A stretch of 26,896 bases of DNA from a virus, in the IMG/VR virus record IMGVR_UViG_3300031624_000011, positions 1 through 26,896 of that record. One strand, written 5' to 3'. Shown one piece after another: positions 10,815 through 15,961 of this stretch. The notes beneath the pieces are model-generated. The model was not told the DNA's origin and made no database searches. It saw only the letters and a program-made list of their open reading frames with translations. Position 1 is the stretch's first letter. Every line of letters starts with the position of its first letter. A program made the position numbers and the translations under genes.

Positions 10815-11738
10815 TTAACTAATTTTATTTTTTTTATATAAATCATTACCATACTGTATAACTGAAACGGCTTGGTCATGTGTTAATGTATTAACATCAG
10901 GGACACTTCCCAATACTTGCTGAGCAAGATCTTCATATTTATAACCCCTCATATCATATAAACTTTGAATGGCTATCTTCTGAACATCACTTATACTATC
11001 AACACTTGGTGTTTCTGTTGTTGTAGATACAGGCGCAGATACAGTAAGAGGTTCTTTCACCGACGGAAGCGGTGCTTTACCCATAATAGGAGCACCATTA
11101 AGAGGGGCACCATGTATAGGTTCTGGAATCTTAGGTATTGATTCATTATGTCTCAGCGGTTCAGGTGTTGATTGCACCATAGTAGTGGTTGGGGGAACCT
11201 GTTGTATATTCATTTCCTGAACTATTGGCGGCTTGCTCGTTGCAAGCACTGGTGGGGATGTGACAACTGGCGGTCCAGTTGGTTTAGATGGTGCTGGCGG
11301 TAATTCCTGTACCGGAAGCGCTGCCACTGGTTTCGGACCAGGCATTCCTGTATCAGTAGGAGTAGTAGTAATTTCATTATCATCATCTAGATATAAACCA
11401 ACACCCCATCTTCTACAAGCATTTACAAGTGCTTTAGAATATGCTGATTTAAAAGAACTTCCAGGTTCTCCACCAGCATCTTTATGCCCACCAAAACCCT
11501 CATGCCAAAACCATGTTTTGGATTCAGGATCTAATACTAATACTTTAACTCTAACAATAACAGTACCATCTGCAAAAGCATCCTGAAATCTAACTTCTGT
11601 ACACCAATTACCTTGAAATAGCCTATTCATTCTATCAGTTACATCATTGGCAGCGACATACGGATACCTTCCACCTCTTCCTGGTCTCGTAGCCACATTA
11701 AATTTGTCATAAAAACCGTTAAAAATTATCTCATCCAT
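10815..11738 (-). CDS. Rad52/Rad22-family single-strand annealing protein
   Basis: 307 aa. Residues about 8-120 carry the Rad52 core: GGRYPYVAANDVTDRMN, FQGNWCTEV, TVIVRVKVLV, WHEGFGGH, then SSFKSAYSKALVNACRRWGVGLYLDD, the hallmark helix. A Pro-rich disordered linker (about 128-240) joins a small helical C-terminal domain (about 245-300, ISDVQKIAIQSLYDM) of the type found in phage annealing proteins for partner (SSB) contact. It anneals complementary single strands in phage recombination and replication. GGAG precedes ATG 11738, and a strong promoter lies 35 bases upstream; it is the first gene of the long operon reaching the left edge. Confidence 0.9.
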   Translation of the reverse strand: MDEIIFNGFYDKFNVATRPGRGGRYPYVAANDVTDRMNRLFQGNWCTEVRFQDAFADGTVIVRVKVLVLDPESKTWFWHEGFGGHKDAGGEPGSSFKSAYSKALVNACRRWGVGLYLDDDNEITTTPTDTGMPGPKPVAALPVQELPPAPSKPTGPPVVTSPPVLATSKPPIVQEMNIQQVPPTTTMVQSTPEPLRHNESIPKIPEPIHGAPLNGAPIMGKAPLPSVKEPLTVSAPVSTTTETPSVDSISDVQKIAIQSLYDMRGYKYEDLAQQVLGSVPDVNTLTHDQAVSVIQYGNDLYKKNKIS

Positions 11739-11773: not shown

Positions 11774-11801
11774 AATATAAGCATTATTTTTCATTTGTCA
11801 A
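11774..11801 (-). promoter_or_regulatory. phage promoter P1 (TTGACA-N16-TATATT)
   Basis: -35 TTGACA at 11796-11801, -10 TATATT at 11774-11779, spacer 16. It shares AAAT after the -35 and TAATGCT before the -10 with six other sites here. Start of transcription is expected near 11767, giving a short leader to the Rad52-like gene. Confidence 0.8.
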
Positions 11802-11812
11802 GTTATTTTATT

Positions 11813-12032
11813 AAAAAATTAATGATAGTGTGCTATTACGCCAAAGGTACCCGCTGGCTGGTTACTACGGGCAGAGGTTTACAGTCCCAACCTAAGCAAC
11901 CCCAAATACCTTGCATCCAGCCGTGAGCTCAGACGGTATTCGGAGCTGCATCTATAGAGGTTTTACCTCTTTAACGGTTCCACTCTTTAAAAGATGGCTG
12001 CTTCTAAGCCAACTTCCTGCCATTAATTTTTT
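11813..12032 (-). ncRNA. structured RNA containing a 23S rRNA GTPase-associated-centre (L11-binding) mimic with a ~140-nt insertion
   Basis: No ORF. RNA read from the minus strand. Positions 12021-11981 match the 23S rRNA GTPase-associated centre (E. coli about 1051-1090), including GUUGGCUUAGAAGCAGCC (helix 43) and UUUAAAGAGUG. Positions 11841-11828 give GCGUAAUAGC-ACAC, the helix 44 loop. Between them, 11842-11980, is an insertion absent from rRNA. It folds as a small hairpin (AGAGGU/ACCUCU) and a 15-bp helix with three G-U pairs (11935-11949 with 11896-11910) whose loop holds GGCUGG, complementary to CCAGCC at 11856-11861 (possible pseudoknot). AU-rich arms at 12022-12032 and 11813-11823 pair perfectly and close the domain; the 3' arm ends in a U-run and could terminate. 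Likely transcribed from P2 behind two small genes. Confidence 0.85.
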
Positions 12033-12046
12033 ATTAATTTTTAATA

Positions 12047-12524: not shown

Positions 12525-12549
12525 TTTTTTCTCCTCTTTTCTTTTTTTG

Positions 12550-12621
12550 AGTCCCTGGCGGGAATTGAACCCGCGACACAGTGTTTTAGAGGCACCTGTT
12601 CTACCACTGAACTACAGGGAC
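12550..12621 (-). tRNA. tRNA with CUA anticodon (putative amber suppressor)
   Basis: 72-nt cloverleaf: acceptor GTCCCTG/CAGGGAC, D-stem GTTC/GAAC, T-arm GCGGG-TTCAATT-CCCGC, discriminator U, no encoded CCA. Anticodon loop CTCTAAA puts CTA at 34-36 (U33 present), which reads UAG. The anticodon stem GGTGC/ACACT has a C-A mismatch at 31-39 and a G-U at 27-43. The body resembles the Gln and Asn tRNAs of this window. Amino-acid identity is not determinable by eye. Confidence 0.75.
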
Positions 12622-12629
12622 CTTAATAT

Positions 12630-12657
12630 AATATAATCATTATTTTTAATTTGTCAA
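12630..12657 (-). promoter_or_regulatory. phage promoter P2 (TTGACA-N16-TATATT)
   Basis: -35 at 12652-12657, -10 TATATT at 12630-12635, spacer 16 with the shared AAAT and TAATGAT elements. Expected start is near 12623, right at the 5' end of the amber-anticodon tRNA. It overlaps the 3' end of the glycosylase gene and should drive the tRNA, two small genes and the rRNA-like RNA. Confidence 0.8.
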
Positions 12658-15634: not shown

Positions 15635-15961
15635 TGGTGGAGACGCTGGGAATCGAACCCAGGTCCAGAATGTTTTGCTTCGAAACGTTGACAGCGATAA
15701 TAACGCCAGAAAGAAGGTGAATCATACAAACAAAAAACGTTTAACAGATTCTGTTGCTAAGCTCTGCTGGGCTTCATGGCTTTTAAGCGGCTAACGCCGT
15801 TAAAGGCTCAGAATGGCGTACTGGACATGAGTTCAACATATCCGCCATATAAGTTATCATAGATTTACCATCTATATTTTTTCACAATTTTAACGTAGTT
15901 TGTGAGTTCTACGCGCTGAGGTTTCGACCAAATCCACCCTGTCGAAGCCAATATCGTCCCC
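15635..15961 (-). ncRNA. ssrA: tmRNA (transfer-messenger RNA)
   Basis: 327 nt with the tRNA-like ends: 5' GGGGACGATATTGGCTTCGA and 3' GGTTCGATTCCCAGCGTCTCC followed by encoded ACCA. The 5' GGGGACG pairs with CGTCTCC. The tag frame ends GCG-TTA-GCC-GCT-TAA (Ala-Leu-Ala-Ala-stop, stop at 15783-15785), the classic degradation tail. Upstream in that frame the codons read V-R-H-S-E-P-L-T, so the tag is probably some form of (A)(VR)HSEPLTALAA; the resume codon cannot be fixed by eye. It adds a degradation tag to proteins on stalled ribosomes. A promoter-like site ends four bases upstream. Phage-encoded tmRNAs are known but uncommon. Confidence 0.95.

Follow-up and report, generated by a model that had tools for sequence, protein, structure and literature searches.

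A family of phage RNAs with the fold of the 23S rRNA GTPase-associated centre and an exchangeable insert

A family of RNAs that is restricted to phages, and is carried by large ones rich in tRNAs, adopts the fold of the GTPase-associated centre (GAC) of 23S rRNA, as established by covariation. Between the equivalents of positions 1090 and 1091 each of these RNAs carries an inserted domain that varies strongly from member to member. Capture of host uL11 is the role best supported by the evidence, although the ligand is inferred, without binding data, and the effect is speculative. The full reading, in which a trans-acting GAC mimic with an exchangeable insert captures host uL11 and alters host translation control, seems to us as likely to be right as wrong; no transcript, binding or phenotype has been shown.

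The window, that is, the whole stretch of DNA analysed here, is the 26,896-nt virus record IMGVR_UViG_3300031624_000011 of IMG/VR. The GAC-like RNA is encoded on its minus strand, at about 12037–11807 ( Table 1 ). The GAC core is kept in two halves, equivalent to E. coli 23S rRNA positions 1055–1090 and 1091–1104, which are separated by a 136-nt insert and a UUUG linker. A first-pass annotation, made from the sequence alone, had claimed that the conserved loops of the L11-binding domain are kept, that about 140 nt are inserted in the 5′ strand of helix 44, that the insertion contains a 15-bp helix with G-U pairs, and that an AU-rich helix closes the domain. All four claims held: the loops were located on the minus strand as GGCUUAGAAGCAGCC (12010–11996) and GCGUAAUAGC (11841–11832), the insertion lies between 1090 and 1091, the 15-bp helix is found in the predicted fold, and the closing helix is present. 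There is a single copy of the 17-mer TTGGMTTAGAAGCAGCC, against none expected from shuffles. The alignment to LSU rRNA proposed in the same annotation was run, and the Rfam model RF02541 matches the 5′ half of the RNA at 20.6 bits (E = 2e-4), below its gathering score of 50.

The whole RNA is predicted to fold more stably than any of 200 shuffled sequences (z = −4.4). When the GAC pairs are enforced, the model reaches −63.1 vs −76.1 for the minimum free energy (MFE) structure, or 13 kcal/mol above the MFE; nearest-neighbour energies omit the tertiary contacts that stabilise the GAC fold. The three insert hairpins are identical in the two models. A GGCUGG/CCAGCC pseudoknot, also proposed by the first-pass annotation, is not supported: the sequence would allow it, but in the predicted fold CCAGCC is taken up by a nested GGUUGG, and the window insert recurs in no homologue that could support either pairing.

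Table 1. Features of the GAC-like RNA and its surroundings in the window.
Feature	Position	Strand	Basis or remark
Promoter-like TTGACA-16-TATATT upstream of the CTA tRNA	12630..12657	-	Candidate transcript promoter; consensus scan only
tRNA with CTA anticodon, nearest upstream same-strand tRNA, 533 nt from the RNA	12549..12621	-	ARAGORN, Rfam
Closing helix, 5′ strand; H42-like with AU-rich extension	12018..12037	-	Predicted fold; columns 1047-1054 covary with 1105-1112 (93 members)
GAC 5′ half, 1055-1086 (H43, 1082-1086 pair)	11986..12017	-	RF02541 match; covariation
GAGU, 1087-1090, H44 5′ strand	11982..11985	-	Invariant in 86 aligned members
Inserted domain of 136 nt between 1090 and 1091, closing stem G..C	11846..11981	-	Covarying closing pairs in the family; fold
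Insert hairpin 1, AGAGGU-AAA-ACCUCU	11956..11970	-	Predicted fold only
Insert hairpin 2, 15-bp helix with G-U pairs (11949-11935 with 11910-11896)	11896..11949	-	Predicted fold only
Insert hairpin 3, GGUUGG/CCAGCC, rival pairing to the proposed pseudoknot	11856..11892	-	Predicted fold only
UUUG linker, family hallmark, not in 23S rRNA	11842..11845	-	86/86 aligned members; the search motif accounts for part of this
GAC 3′ half, 1091-1104, GCGUAAUAGCACAC; A1101 replaces rRNA U1101	11828..11841	-	
Closing helix, 3′ strand; U-rich	11807..11827	-	Predicted fold; family covariation
Promoter-like TTGACA-16-TATATT after the RNA, before the Rad52-like gene	11774..11801	-	Consensus scan only
Rad52-like gene	10815-11738		Pfam match

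The window encodes 15 tRNAs and a tmRNA, all on the minus strand (ARAGORN, with which Rfam agrees), as well as Lon, a ClpB-type AAA protein, a Rad52-like protein, DNA methylases and a UDG-family protein. Upstream of the GAC-like RNA lie the CTA-anticodon tRNA and two small ORFs; a promoter-like site and the Rad52-like gene come after it. The claim that promoters flank the RNA held only in part: promoter-like sites are present on both sides, but the total of such hits in the window by consensus scan is no more than expected by chance. The CTA-anticodon tRNA is labelled Pyl by ARAGORN and is possibly a UAG suppressor; three of the 36 listed window ORFs end in TAG, so that no stop-codon reassignment is evident. 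The phage-encoded tmRNA (15635–15961, minus strand) has the tag GKSMITYMADMLNSCPVRHSEPLTALAA.

A blastn search for distant matches in phage records recovered the same 5′ half from phages belonging to different genera, most hits falling where no gene is annotated. Among these phages are Cronobacter GAP32, Pectobacterium CBB, Serratia BF, Erwinia phages, Xanthomonas XbC2 and XacN1, Acinetobacter ME3, Vibrio 2.275.O, Pseudomonas pf16, UNO-G1W1, Astolliot, Milchi and Aeromonas 4_4572. The hypothetical proteins whose annotations overlap the RNA in Milchi (L008, 2528–2659, minus strand), UNO-G1W1 (L005, 2573–2680, minus strand) and Kaldavass (L003, 3031–3123, plus strand) are probably spurious. A scan of IMG/VR with the phage-specific 3′ motif CTTTGGCGTARNARCRCAC alone returned at least 120 rows, and four narrower scans added more. 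A script that looked for a 5′ half within 620 nt of the 3′ half recognised one in 152 loci, which gave 114 elements less than 88% alike; members span both cultivated large phages (GAP32, CBB, BF, ME3, 4_4572, Astolliot) and IMG/VR contigs. In twelve further loci the script recognised no 5′ half, although two or more of these (L010 and L011) are divergent members. A 20-nt form of the 3′ motif is matched by only seven contigs from 84,980 species of bacteria and archaea, and their neighbours, where checked, match phage protein families. Paenibacillus phage Pd_22F (L007) and short rRNA-bearing phage records were excluded as contaminating 23S; the contiguous genuine 23S in these records probably reflects contamination or misassembly.

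Two loci (L078 and L110) each contain two elements, and two different copies lie on one contig (L132 and L159). A second extra stretch, between 1077 and 1081 (after GCAGCCA and before the UUUAAAG segment), is found in about a dozen members (L110, L116, L126, L018, L056, L066, L076, L079, L091, L102 and L157), many of which form an obvious hairpin there.

The family is apparently undescribed and is likely not an Rfam family. In the window, no intron, GOLLD, ROOL or other family apart from tRNA and tmRNA exceeded its gathering score, and the window RNA matched no intron family at a relaxed threshold. The best 150 of 184 Rfam hits from 18 member loci belong to tRNA and tmRNA families only. No description of a GAC-mimic RNA was found in the open-access literature searched; coverage of subscription papers and preprints was incomplete, and a prior description cannot be excluded.

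The evidence for the fold comes from a covariation scan (mutual information with average-product correction) of 93 members joined across the insert, with no structure supplied. The top fifteen pairs are all expected helix or tertiary pairs, namely 1058-1080, three insert-closing pairs, the H42 pairs 1047-1112 to 1054-1105, 1082-1086, 1057-1081 and 1064-1074. Pairing of 1058-1080 is 1.00 vs 0.45 in column shuffles, that of the first insert pair 0.98 vs 0.56, that of the lone tertiary pair 1082-1086 0.92 vs 0.55, and that of seven H42 pairs 0.71–0.89 vs 0.37–0.46. Column shuffles do not preserve relatedness, and 88 of the 93 sequences are effective at 80% identity. Positions 1072/1092/1099 change together, being CCG in 90 members, UUA in two and CCA in one, and U1060, A1088 and A1095 are invariant in the family. 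The 1082-1086 pair, the 1072/1092/1099 triple and U1060/A1088 are established tertiary partners in rRNA, known from the crystal structures of L11 with RNA (Wimberly 1999; Conn 1999; both cited in PMC4409310). By H42, H43, the 1082-1086 pair and the triple, the RNA belongs to the GAC fold. The phage-specific hallmarks are the insert-closing stem, UUUG, and an A1101 that lies opposite and pairs with U1090, where rRNA has U1101.

A portion of this conservation was imposed by the search. Because CUUUGGCG and CAC belonged to the search motif, the invariance of those 3′ columns is in part a product of the method. The columns of the 5′ half, H42 and the insert stem lay outside the IMG/VR search motif, but the script joining the halves still required a loose 5′ match. 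The central claim of the first-pass annotation, a phage mimic of the GAC with a new inserted domain, is supported by homologues in many phages whose pairing is conserved and compensated, the kind of support that this annotation had itself asked for.

The inserts range from 23 to 363 nt and are hypervariable, with 63 singletons at E ≤ 1e-3. One class of 27 carries a common GGCACCCCGUAAAUGGUAAGGC element, and a class of six (BF-, GAP32-, CBB- and ME3-like, L154 and L099) carries a common (A)GACCCUUAGA element. The window insert is unique apart from a 16-nt motif in common with L069 and L162. One insert class was searched for in plasmids, without a match.

The tip of the domain is relaxed in the phage RNAs. 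Position 1067 is A in 93 of the 114 members, G in 16, C in three and U in two, position 1068 is A in 24, and position 1070 is G in 28. The bacterial 23S tip at 1067–1070 is always AGAA in 41 genomes from the phylum of a Bdellovibrio bin and 32 from the phylum of a Thioploca bin. This comparison was limited to genomes matching a pattern with 1067–1070 left free and to these two phyla; a Clostridia pattern gave no match. In the ribosome the tip contacts factors, tRNA and thiopeptides. Since the tip varies and the core is kept, a ligand of the core such as L11 is preferred over factor blocking or thiopeptide binding, either of which is, on this inference, unlikely as the general role of the RNA. 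Consequently, the roles listed in the first-pass annotation (titration of L11 or L7/L12, blocking of RelA or factors, altered thiopeptide sensitivity) are not equally likely, and L11 or another ligand of the folded core is favoured, with neither function nor transcript shown.

The RNA is closely associated with tRNA genes, which are found in the fetched locus of 80 of 114 members. A same-strand tRNA lies within 500 bp in 60 of the 114, often at a distance of 7–20 nt, and all 640 tRNAs near the RNA are on its strand, with none opposite. This tight spacing suggests, by inference, that the RNA is transcribed together with the tRNAs and that the enzymes of tRNA processing form its ends. No protein gene recurs widely near the RNA in 112 loci. 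The commonest neighbours are HNH-type genes (seven and five loci) and a cytosine methyltransferase (five loci), with gene names read from the sequences and partly checked. The L11 family has no match in 56 phage records. In the absence of both a recurring partner gene and a phage L11, the partner should be a host molecule. Phage L7/L12 exceeded the cut-off in six of 46 records, mostly as partial matches, and is thus not general.

The L7/L12 C-terminal-domain-like sequences lie in the L154 record (G340, 304136–304336) and in G309, G317, G319, G311 and W05; one phage L7/L12-like sequence is full length (E = 6e-26), the others being mostly partial. A class-V aminotransferase (cysteine-desulfurase-like) is found near the RNA in L139, L141 and L042; in L139 and L141 it is phrog_12787. 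An integrase / MrpR-like gene in L139 suggests a temperate phage lineage.

In the mechanism proposed here, the family member would act in trans as a free-standing phage noncoding RNA, probably co-transcribed with the phage tRNAs, a stable transcript being inferred. Sharing the tertiary structure of the 23S GAC, it would offer its conserved H43/H44 core as a docking site for host uL11; the autonomously folding GAC region is the known L11 site (PMC4409310), and binding by the phage RNA is inferred without binding data. The exchangeable insert would form an extra arm between 1090 and 1091 that keeps the RNA out of ribosomes and adds a lineage-specific function, a role that is speculative. Also speculative is the outcome, a change during infection in L11-dependent translation control of the host, through RelA activation or the behaviour of release or elongation factors. 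Because RelA activation requires the N-terminus of L11 (PMC4974054), a relaxed stringent response is one plausible consequence among several. It is possible to object that ribosomes already hold L11, so that mostly unbound or freshly synthesised L11 would be open to a decoy and the effect may be small; the insert at 1090/1091 could also hinder L11 docking, and a GAC ligand other than L11 remains possible.

A bolder reading, against which we lean slightly, is that these RNAs are widespread viral mimics of a ribosomal functional centre, in which the GAC half stays constant and captures either the uL11 of the host or a defence protein directed at the GAC, the swappable insert supplies a second, lineage-specific activity, and the two jointly reprogram host translation.

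Several rival explanations were considered. The RNA could be a decoy for a defence protein or toxin of the host (a nuclease, a modifying enzyme or a sensor) that recognises the GAC on ribosomes, with the phage copy being sacrificed or blocking that protein. By analogy, the tRNAs of phages may stand in for host tRNAs that have been cleaved. The association with tRNA arrays, the conserved fold and the fast-changing inserts and loop are as an arms race would give. However, the searches made turned up no anti-phage effector directed at the GAC, conservation of the fold alone cannot separate a decoy from L11 binding, and we regard this rival as unlikely. It is also doubtful that L11 or another GAC-binding protein merely stabilises a phage ribonucleoprotein as its scaffold while the insert carries the actual activity. 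The inserts are large (up to 363 nt) and structured and some fall into common classes, but 63 have no detectable relative and some are only 23 nt, making a common insert activity unlikely. Direct binding to the tRNA elbow or a translation factor, as by the ribosomal GAC tip, with action on phage tRNAs or EF-G/EF-Tu, would suit the tRNA-array context and the retention of A1095 and the loop fold; it is very unlikely given that A1067–A1070 vary in phages and not in the 23S checked. Still less likely is a cis-acting element, either an rRNA-mimic leader or a self-splicing insert within a GAC exon. Leaders of r-protein operons that mimic rRNA are known (PMC8058203) and the main insert is always at one position, but there is no recurring downstream gene and no phage L11 in 56 records, no Rfam intron family exceeded its gathering threshold in the window or in the best 150 of 184 hits from 18 loci, and some inserts measure only 23 nt. 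A remnant or chimeric piece of host rDNA, suggested by the closeness of the GAC halves to 23S, is, in agreement with the first-pass annotation, all but excluded by the rebuilt and covarying closing stem, by hallmarks common to many phages, by the number of independent isolates and by the lack of any LSU match elsewhere in 22 phage records.

Very different phages, including several cultured isolates, maintain a functional centre of the ribosome as a separate gene that was apparently taken from 23S rRNA. The family allows a direct test of whether phages use RNA instead of protein to act on translation control through L11 and the stringent response. It also offers a natural test of which GAC nucleotides are important away from the ribosome, and it goes some way towards explaining what the extra non-tRNA RNAs in phage tRNA arrays are.

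GOLLD and ROOL are large structured RNAs of phage and prophage settings near tRNAs. Their structures have been reported (PMC12286853); unlike the family described here they are much larger, and neither is matched by Rfam in the window or in the best 150 of 184 hits from 18 loci. The phage T4 species 1 and 2 stable RNAs (rnaC and rnaD) are likewise non-tRNA RNAs in a phage tRNA cluster, but by inspection the T4 sequence has no GAC motif and only location is held in common. Like the leaders of r-protein operons, the phage RNA imitates the rRNA site of an r-protein (PMC8058203), but it is not upstream of any r-protein gene seen and lies instead in tRNA arrays with variable neighbours. In its fold the phage RNA resembles the 23S GAC itself (the L11-binding domain, E. 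coli 1051–1108, part of RF02541). The LSU cut-off was reached in none of 22 phage records, and in records with any match only the GAC segment was detected, with no contiguous 23S gene around the RNA. The phage RNA differs from the 23S GAC in being a free-standing gene, in its insert and UUUG between 1090 and 1091, in the change of U1101 to A, in its variable 1067–1070 and in its sub-threshold Rfam score. It shares with the 23S GAC the H42/H43/H44 plan, the 1082-1086 pair, the 1072/1092/1099 triple, U1060/A1088 and the invariant A1095.
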